Below, piece after piece: positions 31,769 to 53,941 of a stretch of 64,000 nucleotides of DNA. The translations under genes and the position numbers were made by a program. Below the pieces are notes generated by a model. That model saw nothing but the letters and a program-made list of their open reading frames with translations. It did no database searches and was not told where the DNA came from. Position 1 is the first letter of the stretch. Every line of letters starts with the position of its first letter. Source of the stretch: Gemmatimonadota bacterium (lineage in GTDB: Bacteria > Gemmatimonadota > Gemmatimonadetes > Gemmatimonadales > Gemmatimonadaceae); NCBI GenBank assembly GCA_016182795.1, contig JACPFW010000035.1, positions 1 through 64,000 of the forward strand. The letters run 5' to 3'.

Positions 31769-33205
31769 GTGACGTACTTCAACCAGAAACAGAGCGACAC
31801 GCGCGATTGGCGCTGGTCCATCAAGAGCGAGATCATCAAGGATCTCCTCGGCGCCTTCAACATGCGCGATGCGGTGGAGGCGGTCTTTCCGTCCGCCCAG
31901 GATCGCTCCCGGGTGGACGAGATCACCACGGCGTCGTACAAGTGGTCGACCCACTACCCCACGAAATACCGGTACTTCTTCGACAAGCTGGCCACGACGC
32001 TCGGCTGCGAGCCCACGGTGCACGGGCTGACCCTCGTGCGGGCGTCGGTGGACGAGTTCATCGAGCTGCTGCCGGAAAACCGGCGCGAGCAGGCGCGGAA
32101 GGTCGTGCGCAAGCTCACGGGGCATGTGTCCGAGCCGACGCCGCAGTCCACGTCGCGCGAAAGCCGCGCGGTCCCCGACGCCGAGTCCACCCGGCAGGGC
32201 GCGCGTTTCGTGCGCCTGAATCACACGAAGGACTTCGAATCGCTCACGTCGGGCGTGAAGGCCGGGCTCCTCGACACCCGCAACTACTACTCGACCGCCG
32301 ACGCGGCCGATGTCTGGCAGAACCTCGTCTCCGCCGAGTCGTACCGCATGTACGACCAGTGCAAGGCCGGACTGCGGGCCCTGCTGCAGGACGCCCACTG
32401 GCTGGATGCCCTGCGCGAAACGCCGCTCACCACGGCGGTGATGCTTGCCGGCGGCGGGGCGCCGACCAAGGATCTCGTGATACTGCGGAGTCTGCTCGAT
32501 CAACCGGCGGTGCAGGGAAAGACCGTCAGCCTGGTGCTGGTCGACATCAACTTCTACATGCTGTATCAGTCCAGGCGGCTGCTCGACCGCGCCCGCGCCG
32601 AGTCGCCGTGGAGTGATCGCGTGAACTTCGAGTACGTCATCGACGACGTGCTGGCGCTCGGTGATTCAGGCGAGGTGTTTCATCGCGAGGGTCCCACCCT
32701 GTTCGCGATCACCGGCGGGACCATTGGGAACCTCAGCGAGATGAAGTTCTTCCGCTCGCTCAACCGCATCGCCGAACCGCGCGATCTGCTCATCGTCAGC
32801 GCCGACACGGTCGACGGACTCCCCCCGAACGAGGTCAAGGAGGAGCTGGAGCGGAAGTACAATCACGAGGAGATGCGGCGGTTCATCACCCCTGGGGTGC
32901 GCGCGGTGATCGACGAGCTTGGCCTGCCGCTGTCGGTGCAGGATGCGTTGCGGACGGTCGAGGTGCGCGTGCGGCCCGACGCGGAATCGGGACTCAGCGA
33001 CGTGCCCGGAAGCTGGAGCGTGGCGCTCGTGCAGCCGGCCGCGCACCGGGAAGTCACGCTGCTGAGTTCCACGCGCTACGTCTCGGACGAGCTGGAGGCG
33101 TTCATCGCCCGACTCGGGTGGGAGCTGATCTGTGCGGTGCCCAGTCCGGCCAACGCGCACTATGTACAGTTCTGCTTCCGGCGCCGGAGCGCCGAATCGG
33201 CCTGA
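31769..33205 (+). CDS. EgtD-like SAM-dependent methyltransferase
   Basis: This is a 478-residue protein beginning VTYFNQKQSDTR at a GTG 4 bases after the symporter stop. The C-terminal half looks like a histidine-specific methyltransferase domain (Methyltransf_33, the EgtD family): LAGGGAPTKDL for cofactor binding, LVLVDINFYMLY, and the diagnostic AITGGTIGNLSEM. The N-terminal 170 residues have a helical start and a hydrophilic linker without a known domain. EgtD itself trimethylates histidine on the path to ergothioneine, but this protein is longer and no egtB-type gene is near, so the substrate is uncertain. Coupling to a symporter hints at a transported substrate. Confidence 0.7.
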   Translation: MTYFNQKQSDTRDWRWSIKSEIIKDLLGAFNMRDAVEAVFPSAQDRSRVDEITTASYKWSTHYPTKYRYFFDKLATTLGCEPTVHGLTLVRASVDEFIELLPENRREQARKVVRKLTGHVSEPTPQSTSRESRAVPDAESTRQGARFVRLNHTKDFESLTSGVKAGLLDTRNYYSTADAADVWQNLVSAESYRMYDQCKAGLRALLQDAHWLDALRETPLTTAVMLAGGGAPTKDLVILRSLLDQPAVQGKTVSLVLVDINFYMLYQSRRLLDRARAESPWSDRVNFEYVIDDVLALGDSGEVFHREGPTLFAITGGTIGNLSEMKFFRSLNRIAEPRDLLIVSADTVDGLPPNEVKEELERKYNHEEMRRFITPGVRAVIDELGLPLSVQDALRTVEVRVRPDAESGLSDVPGSWSVALVQPAAHREVTLLSSTRYVSDELEAFIARLGWELICAVPSPANAHYVQFCFRRRSAESA

Positions 33206-33321
33206 AACGAAGGCCGGTGACCGGGTTTCCGGACCTTTCCGGGGCTTTCCGTTGAGTGGCGGTTGCGCGTCCTAGGCTTTCCGGCTGGGCCGCGGTAGCG
33301 TGCTCCACAAGGAGGACGCCC

Positions 33322-34080
33322 ATGACCGCTACTCGCCTGCTCATCACACCAGCCGTGGCACTGCTGTGCCTGGCGTCAATCGCTCCACCCGCCGATGCTC
33401 AGCGCCTGTCGGGCGACGGGTTTCTCTTCGGCGCGCCCAAGGCCAGCGTCGCCGTCCGGTTCGGCTATGCGGCGCCATCGGCCGGCAGCGACCTGTTTTC
33501 GTTCGTGACCGATGAACTGTCGCTGCGCCGAAGCGACTTCGGAACGTTCAACTATGGTGCCGATCTCGCCGTTCCGGTGCGCCCGCGCTGGCACGTCGTG
33601 CTCAGCGCGGACATTGGCGGGATGGACAAGAAGTCAGACTATCGCGAGTGGCAGGACAACTCGGGCCTGCCCATCGAACAGTCGACGTCGTTCAAACGAC
33701 AAGCGTACGCCGCCAGCATCCGGTACTATCTGCGTCCGGTCGGGCGGTCGCTGAGCACCTTCGCGTGGATCCCGGCGCGATTCGCTCCGTGGGCAAGCGC
33801 CGGCGTTGGACGCACGTACTACAAATTCGCGCAGCGCGGCGACTTTGTGGATTTCACCAACAGCAATCGAATCTTCGCGGACTCCTACAAGTCCGCGGCG
33901 TGGGGATTCACCGCGCAGGCCGCAGCGGGTTTCGACTGGAGCCTCTCTCCCCGCTTTGCCATGACAACGCAAGCCAAGTACCTCCGGGGGAAGGCCGATC
34001 TCGGCCTCGACTACTCCGGCTTTGCACCTATCGACCTGTCCGGGCTGAGCATGACCGGCGGGCTGGCTGTCAGGTTCTGA
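33322..34080 (+). CDS. Outer-membrane beta-barrel protein
   Basis: This is a 252-residue exported protein. The start at 33322 has a perfect AAGGAGG 6 bases upstream. A signal peptide ends near PADAQ. The mature part alternates hydrophobic and polar residues with many aromatic girdle residues (VAVRFGYAAPSAG, YAASIRYYLRP, ASAGVGRTYYKFA) and ends in LAVRF, a C-terminal Phe as expected for barrel insertion. This suggests an 8-strand barrel of the OmpA/OprF-like size. No ligand can be named. Confidence 0.8.
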   Translation: MTATRLLITPAVALLCLASIAPPADAQRLSGDGFLFGAPKASVAVRFGYAAPSAGSDLFSFVTDELSLRRSDFGTFNYGADLAVPVRPRWHVVLSADIGGMDKKSDYREWQDNSGLPIEQSTSFKRQAYAASIRYYLRPVGRSLSTFAWIPARFAPWASAGVGRTYYKFAQRGDFVDFTNSNRIFADSYKSAAWGFTAQAAAGFDWSLSPRFAMTTQAKYLRGKADLGLDYSGFAPIDLSGLSMTGGLAVRF

Positions 34081-34090
34081 GGAGATCACC

Positions 34091-34218
34091 ATGAAAACCA
34101 CAATCAGTCTCTCCATCGAGGGCCATCCCTTCATGTCTTAATCAAACTTCTTGCGACGGTAACGCTGGTTATGGCGCCGCTGTTTTTGTGAGAAAGGGCC
34201 GGCATTCTATCCCTTTGC
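34091..34218 (+). pseudogene. Broken 5' end of the following gene
   Basis: A ribosome-binding site GGAG precedes ATG at 34091, but that frame stops after 16 codons (MKTTISLSIEGHPFMS). Another frame, the one used by the gene that follows, then encodes LIKLLATVTLVMAPLFL, which looks like a signal peptide core, and meets a TGA at 34189-34191. A frameshift plus a stop codon seem to have separated a signal peptide from the gene at 34219. A sequencing error is the alternative. Confidence 0.5.
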
Positions 34219-35331
34219 TTGACGGCGGGCAAGGTGACGAGCCGCGACCTCATCGACGCCACGGCTGAACCTCGGGCCGTCACCCGCGATGGGTGCCAGG
34301 GCACGGAAACCGCGCAATGGTCCATGACGGGCCGGCGGGTCTATATGCACAGCGCGCTCACCTGTGCGGATGGCACCAAGCGCACGAGTTCAGGCGTACT
34401 CTCGTTTACGGCGCCCAACCAGTGGCTCGACGTCCGCGGCCTCTCGCTGAATGGCGCGCCGTCGGGGATTGCCATTGGACGATTCGTCGCCGTGGAAGCC
34501 GCCGACAGTGCCGGCATTCCCGCTGACGTGTGGCGCGCCACTCCGTCGCGCACCGTCGTTGGCGAAGCTGCGGCGGTCGCGGCGGCGGCCCCACTGACGC
34601 TGACCGACATTGCCGATGTCGCCACGGTAGTACAGGCGGACGTCGCTTCGGCGTGGCTCGTGGAGCGCACACGGGGGCTCCTCCTGTCCATCGACGGCAG
34701 GCAGTTGGCGGCGTTGGCTGACAACGGTGTCCCGGGCTCCGTCATCGACGTGGCGGTGGCGCTCGCCTATCCGGACGTCTTCGGCATCGCGGCTGACTCC
34801 CGTGCGGCGCAGCGTCGCGTCGACACGCGGGCGCAGACCGCGCAGGCTCAGTATCGCGGGGTGTACGCCGGCAGGCCGATGTTCGGCTCCTACGACGATC
34901 CATACCTCTGGGCGCTTGACCCGTGGTACTACTACGGGATGTACGGCGCCCGGTATGGCTATCGGTACGGCTACTATGGATATGGATACGGATTCGGTTA
35001 TCCGTACGGCTATCCGTACGGCTACGGATACGGCTATCCGTACGAGGGCTACGGTCGATTCGGCGGCGGATACTACACGGGGCCGGCGGTCATCGTGATC
35101 CGCAACGACGGCGCCGGCTCGACACCTCCGTCGCACGGGCGCGTGGTGAAGGGGCAGGGCTACACCAGCGGGGCAGGGGCCAACGGGCCCGTCGCCCGCG
35201 GCGGTGGTTCCTCGACGTCCTGGACGTCTGGCTCGGCGAGCATGAGTGCCGGCGGCAGTTCATCGTCCGGCTCCAGCGGCACGTCGTCCTCTTCGAGCGG
35301 CGGTGAGCGGACCGCGGTCAGGAAGCCGTAA
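34219..35331 (+). CDS. Protein with Tyr/Gly-rich repeat, N terminus probably lost
   Basis: The open frame is 370 codons from a TTG at 34219 and has no signal peptide of its own. The first part (residues 1-200) includes a conserved-looking region with DGCQGTETAQWSMTGRRVYMHSALTC and two Cys. The middle carries a Tyr/Gly/Pro-rich tract (about residues 240-290), and the end is Ser/Gly-rich low-complexity sequence. Tyr/Gly tracts of this sort occur in exported surface proteins. A likely signal peptide is encoded just upstream in the same frame but is cut off by a stop codon, so this may be a pseudogene or start at a later GTG. I recognise no family. Confidence 0.5.
   Translation: MTAGKVTSRDLIDATAEPRAVTRDGCQGTETAQWSMTGRRVYMHSALTCADGTKRTSSGVLSFTAPNQWLDVRGLSLNGAPSGIAIGRFVAVEAADSAGIPADVWRATPSRTVVGEAAAVAAAAPLTLTDIADVATVVQADVASAWLVERTRGLLLSIDGRQLAALADNGVPGSVIDVAVALAYPDVFGIAADSRAAQRRVDTRAQTAQAQYRGVYAGRPMFGSYDDPYLWALDPWYYYGMYGARYGYRYGYYGYGYGFGYPYGYPYGYGYGYPYEGYGRFGGGYYTGPAVIVIRNDGAGSTPPSHGRVVKGQGYTSGAGANGPVARGGGSSTSWTSGSASMSAGGSSSSGSSGTSSSSSGGERTAVRKP
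34960..35075 (+). repeat. Tyr-Gly codon repeat tract
   Basis: Degenerate tandem units of TAC/TAT, GGC/GGA and CCG codons encode alternating Tyr-Gly with Pro. Units such as GGCTATCCGTAC recur at least three times between 35000 and 35045. Such tracts expand and contract by slippage. Confidence 0.7.
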
Positions 35332-45812: not shown

Positions 45813-46075
45813 GAACGTTTCCGGTTGGTGAGGTGTCTCACAGAATGAACCGACGGACGAAGGCCCGCCAGCGTGTAATGAATGTGACGCCACGCCGTGC
45901 CTGCGGGTATCTGAGAGTGCGGACGGAGCGCCAGTCGCAGTGGCGGACCCGAAGTCGAAATTGATACTAAGTTGTTCAGTAGCAGCGAATTACGAGAGTT
46001 TGGCGGGGTTCGGTGCTGGTCGTTCGGTGTCGCGATGTGGTGACCCGCGGTGCGGGCATCTCCCAATGGAGCGCA
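45813..46075. promoter_or_regulatory. Divergent region between aldehyde dehydrogenase and sigma operon
   Basis: These 263 bases hold no gene. The AT-rich part near 45955-46000 (AAATTGATACTAAGTTGTTC) is the likeliest promoter region for the sigma factor gene. I could not define -35 and -10 boxes. Confidence 0.4.
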
Positions 46076-46705
46076 ATGCCGTCACGAGCACGTCGTGTGG
46101 AAGCGGTAGCGAGGGAGCAGGTGCCCGGGGTATTGTGGGCTATTCAACCCGCAAACCCGACTTCCTTGCGAGCGAACACCGACATCGATCCTGCCATCCC
46201 GTTGCGAGCGCGCAGCGGGGATATGCAGGCGTTTGCCGAAATTGTGGAGTTTTTTCACGCGCGGTGCCTGCGGTACGCGCGGTATATGCTGGGCGAAGAA
46301 GAGGATGCGGAAGAGGCGGTGCAGGACACGTTCGTGCGCGTCTGGGATCACATCGAGCAGTTCCGGCTCGACGCGCGGTTCGAGCCCTGGCTTTTCCGGA
46401 TCCTGGCGAATCGGTGCCGGACGGCGCGCGAGCGTCGGCGTCGGCGGGAAGCGCTGGTGACCACGGGCGAACTTCCCGCGGTCGCCGCCGAGGCAACCGA
46501 GGCGTCGCGCGACCTGATGGAAGAAGTGGAGGCTGCCCTTGAGGAGCTTCCGAGTGAGCAGCGGGAAGCGTTCTTGCTGCGGCACGTGGAAGATCTGTCG
46601 TACGAGGACATGGCCGTGATCACCGGGGTGCGGTTGTCCGCGCTCCGCATGCGGGTGAAGCGCGCGTGTGATGCGCTGCGCACCCGACTGCAACAGGAGA
46701 GGTGA
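46076..46705 (+). CDS. ECF-type RNA polymerase sigma factor
   Basis: This protein has 209 residues if it starts at the ATG at 46076; a later start is possible because the first 40 residues do not look conserved. Sigma-2 is clear from FAEIVEFFHARCLRYARYML and DAEEAVQDTFVRVWDHI, and sigma-4 from LEELPSEQREAFLLRHVEDLSYEDMAVI. It directs transcription of a set of promoters. The next gene follows by 2 bases and encodes a membrane protein with the layout of an anti-sigma factor, so the pair probably works together. Confidence 0.9.
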   Translation: MPSRARRVEAVAREQVPGVLWAIQPANPTSLRANTDIDPAIPLRARSGDMQAFAEIVEFFHARCLRYARYMLGEEEDAEEAVQDTFVRVWDHIEQFRLDARFEPWLFRILANRCRTARERRRRREALVTTGELPAVAAEATEASRDLMEEVEAALEELPSEQREAFLLRHVEDLSYEDMAVITGVRLSALRMRVKRACDALRTRLQQER

Positions 46706-46707
46706 AC

Positions 46708-47286
46708 ATGATGGACGCACATGACGAACTGATCGAGCGGGCGGCGGCGGCGCTGCGGAGGCGGCAGTCGCCGAATCCGCGCCTTGTCTCTCGAATCCTC
46801 GGGGCGGTCGAAGGGCGGCCGCGCCGCTGGTGGCGTGCGGTCAGCTGGCCTTCGGCGCCGCTCTCGCTCGCGGCGGCCTCCACGCTCGCGGCCGCCGGTC
46901 TGATGCTGGGGTTCCTCTCCCACGGCGCCACCGAGTCTGCCGACCGCGCGCCAATCGCGGCCGGGGCCCAGATGCTCCCGATCGTTCCCGCCGCCCGCAA
47001 TGCCAACGACGCCCTGCCGGTGCCGGTGCAGTTCACCCTGCGTGGAGTGAAGGGCTCGCAGGTGGCGCTCGTGGGCGACTTCAATGGTTGGTCGCAGACG
47101 GCAACGCACCTCGAGCCCGGCTCCGAGCCGGGCACGTGGAGCGTGACGGTTCCGCTTGCCGCGGGGCGCCACGTATATGCGTTCGTCGTCGATGGCAAGA
47201 CCTGGATGACCGATCCGCGGTCTCCCAAGGCCGTTGATCTGGACTTCGGGCGTGAAAACTCCGTACTTATCGTGCAGGCACCGTGA
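46708..47286 (+). CDS. Membrane-anchored putative anti-sigma protein with glycogen-binding-like domain
   Basis: This 192-residue protein starts at the ATG at 46708, with AGGAGAGG 5 bases upstream. A short cytoplasmic helical segment (DELIERAAAALRRRQSPN) precedes a membrane helix around residues 48-72. The periplasmic part ends in a domain of about 85 residues with VQFTLRGVKGSQVALVGDFN, GWSQTATHLE and YAFVVDGKTWMTDP, which is the AMPK1/CBM48 glycogen-binding fold. The cytoplasmic segment could bind the sigma factor encoded upstream, and the outer domain could sense a ligand. That function is inferred from order and topology. It is not a typical zinc anti-sigma domain. Confidence 0.75.
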   Translation: MMDAHDELIERAAAALRRRQSPNPRLVSRILGAVEGRPRRWWRAVSWPSAPLSLAAASTLAAAGLMLGFLSHGATESADRAPIAAGAQMLPIVPAARNANDALPVPVQFTLRGVKGSQVALVGDFNGWSQTATHLEPGSEPGTWSVTVPLAAGRHVYAFVVDGKTWMTDPRSPKAVDLDFGRENSVLIVQAP

Positions 47287-47930
47287 TGACCTTCCGCCAG
47301 TGGTTCCTCATTTCGCTTGTCTCGGGCACCGCCGCCACGGCGTTGCCCGCGCAGGCGGCCCGCCTCGACGCCTCCGCGGACCTTGGGCTCCGCCGCGCCG
47401 TGGAGCATGAGCTCGTTGCCGCTCGTGCCATTGGGCTGCCCGAAGGCCTGCTGATTGCCAAGGCCAACGAGGGGATCGCCAAGCGCGCTGCGCCGAAGCG
47501 GATCACGGATGCCGTCGCCGCCCTTGGAAAGCGGCTGCAGGTTGCGCGCGACCAGCTCGCGCCCAACCCGAGCGAGGACGAGATTGCTGCCGGCGCCGAC
47601 GCGCTCTATGTCGGCGTACCCGCGCCCCTTCTCAAGAAGATGCGCGCGGCGTGGCCCAACCGATCGCTGGCCCTCCCCCTCGGCGTGCTCACCGAGCTCG
47701 TCGCCAAGGGATTGCCGGCCAGTCGGGCCGCCCAGGTTGTCACCGACCTGATGGCGCGCGGGGCCAGCAACGTGCAACTCTACGCGCTCGCGCAGTCGGT
47801 CCAAGGCGACGTCGCCGCCGGCTGGGCGCCGGAAGCTGCACTCGATCTTCGCGCCCGCGGGGTGATGTCGCTCCTGCCACCAGTCCCCGCCGCGTCCGCG
47901 TTCGCGAATCCGAACCCGCGGAGGCCGTAA
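47286..47930 (+). CDS. Exported helical protein of unknown function in the sigma operon
   Basis: This 214-residue protein begins MTFRQWFLISLVSG with a signal peptide ending near LPAQA. The rest is Ala/Leu-rich and helical with repeats of the kind LPEGLLIAKANEGIAKRAAP and ASRAAQVVTDLMARGAS. No family is recognised. Its ATG overlaps the previous stop codon by one base, and the next gene starts 9 bases after its end, so it is fixed in this operon. Confidence 0.65.
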   Translation: MTFRQWFLISLVSGTAATALPAQAARLDASADLGLRRAVEHELVAARAIGLPEGLLIAKANEGIAKRAAPKRITDAVAALGKRLQVARDQLAPNPSEDEIAAGADALYVGVPAPLLKKMRAAWPNRSLALPLGVLTELVAKGLPASRAAQVVTDLMARGASNVQLYALAQSVQGDVAAGWAPEAALDLRARGVMSLLPPVPAASAFANPNPRRP

Positions 47931-47939
47931 TCCGATGAA

Positions 47940-49085
47940 ATGAGGGGTCTCGCCGCCGTCTGCTTGTTGCTTGCCGCCATGAAGGTCGCGGCGGCGCAGG
48001 CCCCTGATGAGATTCGCGTGGAAGCGGGCGCCGCCCAGGTGCGGCAGGCCGGCAACCGCACGCGCTCGGCTGCCCTGCTTGGCGTGACGTGGCGTCGCAC
48101 CGAGGCGCGGTTCGCGACGACCGTCAGCGGCTCGGTCACCGCCGCTCATGACTCCACCGGCACTGCGCAAGGATTGCTGGCCCTGCGCTATCAGTTGCCG
48201 AGGCTCCCCAAATGGCGCGTTGAAGGCGGCGTCGCCGGCGCGATGTTTGGCCTCAATGCGCTCACGGGCGGCGGCAACGGCGCCACCTTCGTGCGGGTCC
48301 AGCGCGGCAACGGTCCCGGCGGGATGTGGGCGGGCACGGCGGGGAGCATCACCAACCGCAGCGGCCACAACATGCAGTCCTCGACGTTCGATGTCGGGGC
48401 GTGGGGCGAGTACCGGCGCACGTCGGCGACGCTCGCGGCCGTCTCAACCCGGTCGCGCGATGCCGACCTGCTGGCGGCGAGCAGTTTGCCGTCGCGGCGT
48501 CCGGTAGGCGCATACACCGTGCGTGACGCGACGCTGACCGTGCAGCAGACATTCGCCGCGCTCGACCTGGCCGCCATCGGCACCATCCGCAGCGGCGAAG
48601 GCATCGCCACCAAGGTGAACGACCGCTCGTTCATGCTTGCCGCGGCGTTCTACCTGTCGCCGGTCATGGCCCTCACCGTTTCCGGCGGGCGCCAGTTGGC
48701 CGATCCCCTGCGCGCGCTTCCCGACGCGCGGTTTGTCTCGGCCTCGGTGCGCCTTCTGTTGCTGCGCCGGGATCCCGCCGTGCTGCAGATCGATCGCTAT
48801 GGCGCCATTGCGCTCACGCGGCGCGATCCTGAGGGTGGCGCGACGCTCACCATACGCGTGCTCGCCAACTCGGCCGCGCGCGTCGAGGCCTATGGTACGT
48901 TCAGCGGCTGGCAGCCCGTGCGCATGAACTGGGTGCTCGACGCGTGGGAGCTTCAAGTCCATCTGCCGCCCGGCCCGCAGCGCGTCGCCGTACGCATCAA
49001 CGGCAGTCAGTGGCGCGCGCCGGCCAACCTGACCAAGGTGACGGATGAGTTTGGGGGCGAGGCGGGGCTGGTGGTCGTGCCCTGA
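47940..49085 (+). CDS. Exported beta-rich protein with C-terminal glycogen-binding-like domain
   Basis: This 381-residue protein has a signal peptide ending near VAAAQ. Residues 25-290 alternate polar and hydrophobic residues in a beta-barrel-like pattern (for example MLAAAFYLSPVMALTVSGGR). Residues 300-381 are an AMPK1/CBM48-like domain with LTIRVLANSAARVEAYGTFS and GWQPVRMNWVLDAWELQVHL. The same domain type occurs in the second gene of the operon. The gene ends in an intergenic palindrome. Function is unknown; an outer-membrane protein that displays a binding domain is my preferred reading. Confidence 0.7.
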   Translation: MRGLAAVCLLLAAMKVAAAQAPDEIRVEAGAAQVRQAGNRTRSAALLGVTWRRTEARFATTVSGSVTAAHDSTGTAQGLLALRYQLPRLPKWRVEGGVAGAMFGLNALTGGGNGATFVRVQRGNGPGGMWAGTAGSITNRSGHNMQSSTFDVGAWGEYRRTSATLAAVSTRSRDADLLAASSLPSRRPVGAYTVRDATLTVQQTFAALDLAAIGTIRSGEGIATKVNDRSFMLAAAFYLSPVMALTVSGGRQLADPLRALPDARFVSASVRLLLLRRDPAVLQIDRYGAIALTRRDPEGGATLTIRVLANSAARVEAYGTFSGWQPVRMNWVLDAWELQVHLPPGPQRVAVRINGSQWRAPANLTKVTDEFGGEAGLVVVP

Positions 49086-50595: not shown

Positions 50596-51246
50596 ATGGC
50601 CGCGAAAAAGAAACCAGCTAAGCCGAAGGCGCGCACGACGACCAAGAAACCGGTCAAGGCGAAGACACCGGCCAAGGCGAAGAAGCCGGCCAAGGCCAAG
50701 AAGGCCGCGCCTGAGGCCTCGCAGTTCGCCACCGCCGACGGCGGGCCGTGGGGCAAGTGCTTTCTGCCGCGCACCAATGGTGAGCGACGCTACTGGCTGG
50801 TCAAATCGGAACCCGAGACATTCTCGTGGAACGATCTGCTGGCGTCGCCCAGCCAGACCACGCGGTGGGACGGCGTGCGCAACTTTGCGGCGCGCAACTT
50901 CCTGCGCGACGGCATGCGCGTGGGTGATCCGGTCTTCTTCTACCACTCGAGTTCCGAGCCGCCGTGCATCGTCGGCCAGTGTGCGGTGTCGCACGCGGCG
51001 TACCCCGACCCGACGGCGTTCGATCCGGCGCACCCGGGCTTTGATGAATCGTCGTCCCCGGCGAACCCAACCTGGTTCGTGGTCGACCTGCGCGCCGTCG
51101 AACCGCTCGCGCATCCGGTCACTCTCGCGCGAATGAAGCAGACCAAGGCGCTCTCGCGCATGGCGCTGCTGCGCATCGGCCGGCTTTCCGTCACGCCGGT
51201 GACGAAAGCGGAGTGGGATGCGATTCTCGCGTTGTCGCGCGGTTAA
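50596..51246 (+). CDS. EVE-domain protein with histone-H1-like lysine-rich tail
   Basis: This 216-residue protein starts with 40 residues of Lys/Ala/Pro repeats (AKPKARTTTKKPVKAKTPAK), which resembles histone H1 tails and bacterial nucleoid proteins. The rest is an EVE domain with YWLVKSEPETFSWNDLL, WDGVRNFAARNFLRDGM, VFFYHSSSEPPCIVG and LARMKQTKALSRMALLRIGRL. EVE and YTH-like domains read modified bases in nucleic acid. Together the parts suggest a DNA- or RNA-binding protein. It is unlike its secreted-enzyme neighbours. Confidence 0.85.
   Translation: MAAKKKPAKPKARTTTKKPVKAKTPAKAKKPAKAKKAAPEASQFATADGGPWGKCFLPRTNGERRYWLVKSEPETFSWNDLLASPSQTTRWDGVRNFAARNFLRDGMRVGDPVFFYHSSSEPPCIVGQCAVSHAAYPDPTAFDPAHPGFDESSSPANPTWFVVDLRAVEPLAHPVTLARMKQTKALSRMALLRIGRLSVTPVTKAEWDAILALSRG
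50605..50706 (+). repeat. Degenerate AAG-GCC codon repeat
   Basis: The Lys/Ala/Pro tail is encoded by tandem units of the type AAGGCGAAGAAGCCGGCC. Such units change copy number easily, so tail length may vary between strains. Confidence 0.6.
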
Positions 51247-51250
51247 CCCC

Positions 51251-53941
51251 GTGCGCGCGGTGCGTCGGTACACCGTTCCGTTGATTGTCGCGCTGCTCGC
51301 GGCCACCGGGGGACGGGCGTCGGCGCAGTCGAGTACCGCGCTCAGTGGCGATCGTCCGTGGATGGAGCGGCAACGCGCCATCGCCGAGCGCGCGCAGCTC
51401 CTGCTGGCGCGGATGACGCTCGAGGAGAAGTTCTGGCAGCTGTTCATGGTGCCGGGCGATCCGCTGCGAGACACCACGGCATTCGCGCACGGCGCGTACG
51501 GGGTGCAGCTGCTCGCCCTCCGCGAGCGGCTTGGCGACAGCGCGCGCTTGCCGACCGACGCATCGGCGTTGGCCGACTCCGCGCAGCGGTTCTTCGTAAA
51601 GCGCACTCGGCTCGGCATTCCGGCGATCTTCTTTGAAGAAGGGGTGCACGGCCTCATGCAGGACGGCGCCGCGGTTTTTCCGTCCGCCATCGGACTCGCG
51701 GCGTCGTGGGACACGGCCCTCGTGCAGAAGGTGGCGGGGGCCATCGCGCAGGAGGCTCGTGACCGCGGCGTGCGCCAGCTGCTTGCGCCGGTCATCAATC
51801 TTGCGCGCGATCCGCGCTGGGGGCGCGTCGACGAGACCTACGGCGAGGACTCGTGGCTGAGCAGCGCGATGGGACGCGCGTATGTGCGGGCGCTCGAATC
51901 CAACGGTGTGGTCGCCACGCCCAAGCACTTTGTGGCCAACCACGGCGATGGTGGTCGCGACTCGTATCCGGTGTCGGCGGACGCCGCGACGCTCGCCGAC
52001 CTGCATTTCCCGCCCTTCCGTGAGGCGATCGGCGCTGGTGCGCGCTCATTGATGGCGTCGTACAACAGCCTCAACGGCGTGCCGGCATCGGAGAATGAGT
52101 CGCTGCTCACGCGCACCCTGCGCGGCGATTGGCGGTTCGGCGGTGTCGTGATCTCCGATCAAGGCGGCGTCGGCGGGTCGGCGGTGTTGCATCACACCGC
52201 GGCCGATTATACCGAGTCCACGGCGCGCGCGATGCGTGCGGGATTGGACGTCATCTTCCAGAGCGGCGTCGGCGATGCGCGCCTCTTCTGGCCCGCCGTG
52301 CGTGACGGTCGCGTGCCGCGTGCGGCGCTCGACACCGCCGTGGTTCGCGTGTTGCGGCTCAAATTTGCGCTCGGACTCTTTGAGCAGCCCTATGCCGGCG
52401 CGGTGAAGGCCTGGGGTCCTCAGTACGCACTCGCCGTGCGTGCCGCCGAGTCGTCGCTCGTGCTGCTGCAAAACGCGCGCGCCACGCTGCCGCTTGCCGA
52501 CACGGTCAAGCGCCTCGTGGTCATCGGCGCTCCGGCGCACACCGTGCTGTTGGGCGGCTACAGCGTGCGCCCCGCCCGCGAACGCTCGCTGGTGATCGAA
52601 CTCGCCGCCCGCCTCACGGGGCGCACCATCGTCATTGGCGCGGCGGGTCCATCGGTAACGGCGCCCGACTGGGATCCGATTCCGGCTGCGGCGCTCGAGC
52701 ACGACTCGTCGGGTACGCGCGCCGGCGGACTGAAGGCCGAGTACTTCTCGACGCCGTCATTCGACGGCGCACCGGTGGTCACACGCACGGATGCCACCAT
52801 TGATCAGCGGTGGACCTTCAACCGGCCGGCGCGCGGTGTGGACACCGACTGGTTCGCGGTGCGGTGGACGGGCTGGCTCGAAGTGCCCCGCGGCGACACG
52901 GTGCGAGTGGCGGTTGAGGGCGACGACGGATTCCAACTGTGGATCGACGACACGCTGGCGGTGGATGCCGACCGCAAGGTGTCGTACTCGCGACACATCG
53001 CACCGGCGTTGCTCACCGCCGGCCGGCATGCGCTTCGACTGCAGTATCGGCAAACAACCGGGAATGGCCGCGTCCGTCTGTTGTGGGACAAGGGCTACAC
53101 CGACCGCATGCGCGCCGACGAACGTGCGATCGCCGAAGCGGTGCAAGACGCGCGCGGCGCCGACGCGGCGGTCATTGCCGTCGGCGTTGACGAAGGTGAG
53201 TTCCGTGACCGCTCGTCGCTGCACCTGCCAGGGCGTCAGGAAGAGCTCATCGCTCGCGTGGCGGCAACGGGTACGCCGGTCACGGTGATCATCTATTCAG
53301 GCGGCGCGGTGATCACCACGCCGTGGATGGACAAGGTCGGTGCGATTCTGCAGGCGTTCTATCCCGGCGAAGGCGGCGCCGAGGCGATCGCACGCGTGTT
53401 GCTGGGCGACGTGAGCCCCGGCGGCAGATTGCCGTTCACCGTGCCGCGCTTTGAGGGCCAGCTGCCGCTCGTCTATGACCACCTCCCCACCGGACGCGGC
53501 GACGACTACGTCGATCTCACGGGGCAGCCGCTGTTCCCGTTTGGCTACGGGTTGACCTTCGCGCCGTTCCGTTACGACAGCCTCACCATCACCGGCAACG
53601 CTCGGAGTGCGCAGGACACGGTTTGCGTGCAATTCTGGGTGGGCAACACTGCAATGACACCCGGGCGGAGCTCCGGCGACGAAGTGGTGCAACTGTACAT
53701 GCGGCACCGCACGGCGCCAACAGCCCAGCCGGTGCTCGCGTTGCGCGGATTTGCGCGCGTAACACTGTCGCCCGGTGGGTGGCAACGGGTGCGGTTCACG
53801 CTGCCGGCGAGGGCGCTCTACGTCCGAGACGAAAAGGGACGCCTTGTTCCACCCACTGGCCCCATTGAGTTCTTCGTTGGCGCGTCGTCTCGCGACATTC
53901 GACTGCGCGGCTTGCTCGACCCGCACAGAGCATCGCGATGA
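51251..53941 (+). CDS. Exported GH3 glycoside hydrolase with PA14 and fibronectin-like domains
   Basis: This enzyme has 896 residues from the GTG at 51251, followed by a signal peptide ending near RASAQ. The GH3 barrel carries the nucleophile Asp303 in VVISDQGGVGG; KHFVANHGDGGRDSYP is the usual substrate loop. A PA14 domain (about residues 490-625, RAGGLKAEYFSTPSFDGAPVVT to RVRLLWDKGY) is inserted in the second domain, a known GH3 layout. A fibronectin-III-like C-terminal domain follows (FPFGYGLTFAPFRYDS to AVFVRDEKGRL-type region). It cleaves beta-linked sugars; the exact substrate is not visible. It shares a 4-base overlap with the GH29 gene. Confidence 0.93.
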   Translation: MRAVRRYTVPLIVALLAATGGRASAQSSTALSGDRPWMERQRAIAERAQLLLARMTLEEKFWQLFMVPGDPLRDTTAFAHGAYGVQLLALRERLGDSARLPTDASALADSAQRFFVKRTRLGIPAIFFEEGVHGLMQDGAAVFPSAIGLAASWDTALVQKVAGAIAQEARDRGVRQLLAPVINLARDPRWGRVDETYGEDSWLSSAMGRAYVRALESNGVVATPKHFVANHGDGGRDSYPVSADAATLADLHFPPFREAIGAGARSLMASYNSLNGVPASENESLLTRTLRGDWRFGGVVISDQGGVGGSAVLHHTAADYTESTARAMRAGLDVIFQSGVGDARLFWPAVRDGRVPRAALDTAVVRVLRLKFALGLFEQPYAGAVKAWGPQYALAVRAAESSLVLLQNARATLPLADTVKRLVVIGAPAHTVLLGGYSVRPARERSLVIELAARLTGRTIVIGAAGPSVTAPDWDPIPAAALEHDSSGTRAGGLKAEYFSTPSFDGAPVVTRTDATIDQRWTFNRPARGVDTDWFAVRWTGWLEVPRGDTVRVAVEGDDGFQLWIDDTLAVDADRKVSYSRHIAPALLTAGRHALRLQYRQTTGNGRVRLLWDKGYTDRMRADERAIAEAVQDARGADAAVIAVGVDEGEFRDRSSLHLPGRQEELIARVAATGTPVTVIIYSGGAVITTPWMDKVGAILQAFYPGEGGAEAIARVLLGDVSPGGRLPFTVPRFEGQLPLVYDHLPTGRGDDYVDLTGQPLFPFGYGLTFAPFRYDSLTITGNARSAQDTVCVQFWVGNTAMTPGRSSGDEVVQLYMRHRTAPTAQPVLALRGFARVTLSPGGWQRVRFTLPARALYVRDEKGRLVPPTGPIEFFVGASSRDIRLRGLLDPHRASR

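Follow-up and report, generated by a model that had tools for sequence, protein, structure and literature searches.

A 64,000-nucleotide stretch of contig JACPFW010000035.1 from a Gemmatimonadota bacterium (the window, on the contig labelled G000:C49 in a genome of 3.13 Mb and 50 contigs) carries four consecutive genes on the + strand that form a genuine, widespread, conserved and self-contained cassette. They encode an extracytoplasmic function (ECF) sigma factor (SIG), a putative membrane-bound anti-sigma factor with an outer CBM48-like domain (AS), an exported helical protein (HEL) and a predicted outer-membrane barrel protein with a second CBM48-like domain (BAR). We consider it probable that the cassette is an autoregulated sigma/anti-sigma module which links transcription to the condition of the outer envelope. 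An earlier note, made from the DNA letters, had described four overlapping or nearly touching genes, and all four are present where it placed them; the stop codon of AS overlaps the ATG of HEL by 1 nt. The nearest named protein relatives come from Gemmatimonadetes bins (72-74% identity). The features are as follows, with the basis of each in brackets.

45883..45910, + strand: predicted ECF-type promoter, TGTGACG-N16-GGTAT (genus pattern; motif learned outside the genus)
46076..46705, + strand: SIG, ECF sigma factor, 209 residues (Pfam sigma70_r2 and r4_2)
46708..47286, + strand: AS, putative anti-sigma factor, 192 residues (Pfam; position and topology; alignment to the AMPK beta1 CBM)
47286..47930, + strand: HEL, predicted exported all-helical protein, 214 residues, nine helices (AlphaFold2)
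47940..49085, + strand: BAR, predicted 14-strand OmpG-like barrel (residues 24-276) with a C-terminal CBM48-like domain (residues 289-380) (AlphaFold2, Foldseek, alignment)

Distribution and gene order of the cassette

The AS protein was searched in 60 genomes, its own included, and matched in 52. Regions were retrieved around every match except a weak one (G022:C9), giving 93 regions and, with the window, 94 loci, at which the families were mapped with profiles seeded from the window proteins. A CBM48 frame of at least 340 codons was scored as BAR where the BAR profile failed to match, and contig ends truncate some loci. Since the loci were selected by AS, the sigma factor, HEL and BAR count as independent findings. 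The order SIG-AS-HEL-BAR is kept in 50 of the 94 loci, 11 in the window's genus and 39 outside it, so the arrangement is not due to chance; gene order in relatives, which the earlier note had put forward as a check, is conserved. Two further loci add a second HEL to this order, six place the barrel first (BAR-SIG-AS-HEL), three combine a divergent BAR with SIG-AS-HEL and four have SIG-AS alone. Three rarer orders occur once each: SIG-AS-BAR, a divergent BAR with SIG-AS, and SIG-AS with a single frame for HEL and BAR. No separable SIG/AS pair is found at 17 loci, of which nine hold HEL and BAR (including L165, L175 and L179, with a sigma factor that is fused, cut off or misplaced), three hold only long CBM frames, one holds HEL (the fused L158) and four hold none of these. 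The single-frame SIG-AS of L165, whose sigma end looks out of frame, was not used.

HEL itself is detected in 186 of the phylum's 298 genomes, or in 164 when only the 256 good ones are counted. Ten regions in nine genomes, chosen from the listed HEL matches, all contain a sigma factor (one cut by a contig end), a CBM48-bearing AS and a long CBM48 frame; the BAR profile matches eight of them, and four (from three genomes) belong to another family of the class. Outside the phylum, sigma factor, CBM48 and HEL occur together in records named Proteobacteria (L037), Clostridia (L050 and L051, near copies), Rokuibacteriota (L062), Spirochaetes (L065) and Chitinispirillaceae (L069), and a Myxococcota locus (L052) has sigma factor and CBM48 with HEL on the opposite strand beside a long CBM48 frame. 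HEL E-values at these seven loci run from 4e-21 to 7e-7; all seven are metagenome bins, in which binning errors are possible. A different CBM48 cluster is seen in Krumholzibacteriota (L042, L043, L055, L058, L060, L111), where the CBM48-like frames come in threes, consecutive or overlapping (two short, the other of ~650-760 codons), with no sigma match; WOR-3 loci L071, L087 and L092 resemble it.

The best 30 neighbour clusters show local synteny but no flanking gene that recurs more widely, and none is a glycan gene except a GH3-like frame whose cluster comprises nine loci, every one in the window's genus. In the window this beta-glucosidase-like frame lies 2 kb downstream (51218-53941), the label being read from the sequence with no family search behind it. 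Between same-genome paralogues, distances correlate for SIG and BAR (rho 0.58) and for HEL and BAR (0.65; n=20 for both), and to a smaller degree for SIG and HEL (0.33, n=36). Across all pairs the correlations are 0.31-0.62, with shared descent mixed in.

Properties of the four proteins

The sigma gene starts at ATG 46076, with GGAG ahead of the ATG, and this start is kept in the genus alignment. The part of the protein from 46169 matches Sigma70_r2 (PF04542, 3e-15) and r4_2 (PF08281, 5.7e-15) and gives no Pfam match to region 3. Judged by sequence, this is an ECF type sigma factor, with regions 2 and 4 and without region 3. It has 11 matches at E <= 1e-5 in the window's genome.

AS is predicted to have ~51 cytoplasmic residues, a single transmembrane helix from about residue 51 and an outer CBM48 domain at ~105-190. 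An outer CBM48-like domain on a one-helix protein had been proposed earlier and is borne out by Pfam (AMPK1_CBM 5.6e-12, 46.1 bits against a cut-off of 26.8; CBM_48 4.9e-7) and by matches of the domain to PDB entries of the beta subunits of AMPK (E 9e-5). The AMPK1_CBM domain occurs at two sites in the genome, the window and contig C12. Coupling to the sigma gene is tight: in a separate set of 94 SIG+AS units (77 from the AS-selected loci and 17 from loci of a GTDB scan, which retained 80), the distance from the sigma stop to the start of AS lies between -16 and +31 nt. A clear transmembrane segment (score >1.5) is present in 81 of these units, the window included, and the cytoplasmic part of the 81 spans 40-98 residues, 51 in the window. 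Many members have a common helix of the form LRRPV...fd.rVMaavr. HxxxCxxC, zf-HC2 and the other anti-sigma Pfam models are absent from the window protein, and only three of the 94 units have at least two cysteines in the cytoplasmic part. The earlier statement that there is no zinc anti-sigma domain is correct for the window. Two distant relatives, L065 and L069, do have an HxxxCxxC stretch, and L037 and L065 resemble zf-HC2: among eight AS fragments scanned with this model, L037 (21.6 bits), L065 (15.4) and L062 (13.8) all score under the cut-off of 22.2, with no match in L069 or four others. PMC7406223 sets aside domains of fewer than 50 residues as possible class II and has CnrY use two helices. 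The most likely reading of the window AS is that of a shortened anti-sigma factor, which would bind sigma through its cytoplasmic segment.

An AlphaFold2 model built from 65 of 75 BAR frames (predicted local distance difference test, pLDDT, 88.4; predicted template modelling score 0.67) has 14 strands followed by a C-terminal beta domain. Foldseek returns 191 matches at E <= 0.001, among them an E. coli porin (1.0e-6), OmpG (1.7e-6), VhChiP (5.1e-6) and CymA (2.7e-5). The template modelling score against OmpG, which has the same strand number, is ~0.45 on the query and 0.6 on the target. The CBM48 match of the window BAR (18.3 bits) falls under the Pfam cut-off; that of the C12 paralogue in the same genome (34.5 bits) lies above it. 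Loops after odd strands have 5, 2, 5, 2, 19, 9 and 10 residues and those after even strands 3, 6, 2, 2, 3 and 4. The even strand number and the longer loops after odd strands would place both barrel ends in the periplasm, so the CBM48-like domain most likely faces that of AS. The earlier note had assigned a second CBM48 domain to a surface protein; the modelling agrees as to a barrel with such a domain and would put the domain on the periplasmic side instead of the surface.

HEL begins with a signal-peptide-like stretch and is modelled from 92 of 110 frames as nine helices (pLDDT 89.3). It has no significant Pfam, NCBIfam or PDB match by sequence or fold, with nothing at E <= 0.001; the best PDB sequence match has E 0.11 and the best fold match, a designed filament, E 0.014. 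We considered whether it might be a helical sensor like the metal sensor CnrX, and rejected this for want of Metal_resist-type Pfam support or a close fold. In L158 (4763-6946, on G029:C67) ECF sigma factor, transmembrane segment, CBM48 domain and HEL, the last lacking its signal peptide, are encoded in a single 728-codon frame, and the promoter motif is matched 36 nt ahead of the sigma start. This frame is, as translated, a membrane-tethered sigma factor, and it would put HEL next to the CBM48 sensor, on the outer side of the inner membrane. In L153 HEL and BAR share a single frame, which is possibly real.

Promoter motif and candidate targets

A two-block motif search on 71 sigma upstream regions, with the window's genus excluded, found GTGAC-N16/17-GGT at a log-likelihood of 272, compared with 35.7-37.2 in three mononucleotide shuffles (25 versus 8 restarts). 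The motif often lies 35-42 nt ahead of the sigma start codon; the window copy lies 193 nt upstream and scores 20.3 bits with the motif trained outside the genus. A score of at least 10 bits, a threshold that corresponds to the 95% level in random sequence (400 windows of 170 nt), is reached in 58 of 65 training units, in all 11 held-out units of the window's genus (340 nt scanned) and in all 10 other held-out units from Gemmatimonadota, several of them near copies. Median scores are 16.0 bits for sigma genes, 3.4 for HEL, 2.2 for BAR inside operons and 2.1 for random windows, and 10 of the 11 genomes of the genus have the exact TGTGACG-N16-GGTAT ahead of sigma. By motif, a bipartite promoter of fixed spacing is present ahead of the cassette's own sigma gene. 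Between promoter and sigma start, the window also holds TAAG.TGTT......CA....TTA (45968-45992), largely conserved in the genus.

Where BAR precedes sigma, five of the seven BAR genes have a motif of their own that scores 15.5-19.4 bits, with 500 nt scanned at L137; L142 and L179 have no match. The -10 block of each of the five shares its first five letters with that of the neighbouring sigma gene (GGTAG in L149, L157 and L167; GGTAT in L137 and L162). In L130 the second HEL, which follows BAR, has a copy as well. A shared promoter motif, which the earlier note had suggested seeking, is found at sigma genes and at these BAR genes, and we predict autoregulation of sigma together with control of the barrel in some loci.

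We do not claim a regulon wider than sigma, barrel and the second HEL of L130. The exact genus pattern has 15 hits in 11 genomes and none when reversed: 10 are upstream of sigma, three precede SusC-like TonB receptor genes and two lie elsewhere. Twelve SusC regions were collected and 11 genes scored, L269 having been lost to a gene filter. Each of the 11, which include the near copies L271 and L272, has a site with at most two mismatches, compared with 3 of 80 other genes. These genes are not claimed as targets of the sigma factor because alignment of seven orthologous upstream regions shows a TGTGAC...GTCAC inverted repeat, similar to a CRP-type operator, beside another promoter-like pair; one site, at L264, is not palindromic. 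At L261:6414-6441 and its orthologues (L262, L263, L265-L268) a TGTGACgnaaGTCAC-like inverted repeat, adjoined by a TTGCnCAA...TAGGAT-like pair, stands upstream of the conserved SusC-like gene and may be a CRP-type operator. The proteins encoded after SusC are called SusD-like from position only and have no Pfam match. A looser pattern gives 22 hits against four for reversed-pattern controls in 12 genomes. The genes that follow include sigma, barrel, a second HEL and one SusC-like gene, as well as two lipoprotein-like genes that diverge from sigma; the remainder are uninterpretable or unrelated. In the window's own genome the one-mismatch pattern has 39 hits against 14 controls and is therefore not specific. 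The lipoprotein-like genes (L275/L286, G036:C18:288352-288431; L285, G051:C76:2472) have their own motif copies on the opposite strand.

Signalling models and known systems

Starting from the gene set, its conservation, the promoter motif at sigma and some BAR genes, and the predicted folds, all established computationally, we infer a scheme for sigma binding, the periplasmic side of the barrel domain, the relay and the signal. With its shortened cytoplasmic segment AS would keep sigma bound at the inner membrane, and it would expose a CBM48-like sensor to the periplasm, where HEL would act together with it. The OmpG-like barrel would present the second CBM48-like domain to the same compartment. 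A change at the barrel, either ligand passage or assembly state, would be relayed by the CBM48 domains and HEL and lead to sigma release, whereupon the freed sigma would transcribe its own operon and a separately placed BAR gene from GTGAC-N16/17-GGT promoters.

Several observations weigh against this scheme: (i) nine of the 94 loci have SIG-AS-HEL without a nearby barrel; (ii) barrel-HEL pairs without sigma exist, including one in the window's own genome, where at G000:C12 ~32783-34686 (L113:6784-8687) a BAR gene with CBM48 is followed by a HEL gene without sigma or promoter motif (further orphan pairs are L115, L117, L120, L150 and L202); (iii) none of six orphan and none of four divergent BAR genes has a motif of at least 10 bits, the best scoring 8.6; (iv) outside the phylum just one of seven units reaches 10 bits; (v) the sidedness of the barrel is based on loop lengths only; (vi) same-genome distances of SIG are uncorrelated with those of the AS segment (rho 0.03) or CBM domain (rho -0.02; n=36); and (vii) every zinc-finger match among relatives is under the Pfam cut-off.

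The identity of the signal admits two accounts. In the first, which is quite possible if short of an even chance, the barrel is the transporter of an oligosaccharide, such as maltodextrin or cyclodextrin, which would free sigma once bound to the CBM48 domain of AS. OmpG and CymA, both among the fold matches of BAR, are sugar porins. The residues of the sugar site, whose roles we take from the glycan site of AMPK, were tallied in 86 AS and 69 BAR domains after identical rows had been merged. A further 108 domains, which include some AS missed by the adjacency rule, were set apart. W100 is Trp in 86/86 AS and 69/69 BAR domains and W133 in 66/86 and 66/69; both are present in both window proteins. 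N150 is Asn in 57/86 AS domains, which also favours a sugar. Against it, N150 is found in 0/69 BAR domains and K126 is replaced in most of both sets (Ala in 57/86 AS; Asn or Ala in 53/69 BAR), and the recurrent neighbours include no glycan gene save the genus-limited GH3-like frame. A sugar ligand is plausible, more so for AS than for BAR.

The second account treats the CBM48-like domains as E-set modules for protein-protein contact, so that unassembled barrel or HEL would be sensed in the periplasm and sigma would make more of the set. It would explain why the barrel itself is a predicted target at some loci, and the loss of N150 from the barrel domain and the HEL-BAR single frame of L153 are in keeping with it. 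Both aromatic sugar-stacking positions are, however, near-invariant in BAR, which pure protein contact would not obviously need, and we regard this account as rather unlikely. That AS is instead a co-activator or an unrelated co-transcribed membrane protein is improbable: the window protein has no anti-sigma Pfam match, relatives' zf-HC2 scores are under cut-off and SIG and AS distances are uncorrelated, but its tight coupling to sigma in 94 units, the HxxxCxxC stretch of two distant members and the sigma-transmembrane-CBM48 fusion of L158 speak against such a role.

The proposed sigma/anti-sigma module has counterparts among known systems. In the RsgI/SigI biomass sensors of Clostridium thermocellum (PMC4711584), the anti-sigma factor RsgI is a membrane protein that carries a carbohydrate-binding module outside the cytoplasm, its gene mostly overlaps the sigma gene, and the sigI promoters are sigma-dependent. 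The cassette shares with these sensors the outer module of carbohydrate-binding type, the coupled sigma gene and, as predicted, a sigma promoter at the sigma gene itself; it differs in that its sigma factor is ECF by Pfam, AS has no match to the RsgI N-domain, CBM48 takes the place of CBM3, PA14 or GH10, and a barrel and a helical partner are present. With FecI-FecR-FecA cell-surface signalling the cassette has in common an outer-membrane barrel, an inner-membrane anti-sigma factor and an ECF sigma factor. The barrel here is, in contrast, predicted to have 14 strands and no plug, its extra domain is C-terminal and CBM48-like, and neither AS nor BAR has a Pfam match to FecR or to TonB-receptor plug or signalling domains. 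PMC13088901 connects anti-sigma function with the outer membrane and with the expression of glycan-use loci; there one protein, by its name, spans both membranes, whereas barrel and AS are separate genes here. CnrH-CnrY-CnrX is alike in pairing an ECF sigma factor with a very short anti-sigma segment (CnrY is class II in PMC7406223) and different in its CBM48-like sensor and in that HEL matches no Pfam family. The cassette lies outside the definitions of the FecIRA, RsgI and zinc anti-sigma families, yet it appears to work like known sigma/anti-sigma envelope signalling and is regarded as a variant of it. No description of the four-gene unit was found among the papers listed in the literature searches, which covered few subscription papers, so the claim of the earlier note that no described system has this layout stands within that scope, and an earlier mention may exist.

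A bolder and less probable reading is a phylum-wide relay across the envelope, in which twin periplasmic CBM48 domains on the barrel and AS would read the same glycan or each other, bridged by HEL, and so switch an ECF sigma factor. This would be a third architecture leading from the outer membrane to a sigma factor, beside FecA/FecR and Dma. Gemmatimonadota are common in soils. The cassette includes a protein family without a name (HEL) and a predicted promoter that could be used as an output readout. If the reading as a sigma/anti-sigma module is true, CBM48 would be a new sensor domain for ECF signalling, which would also gain an architecture linked to a barrel.

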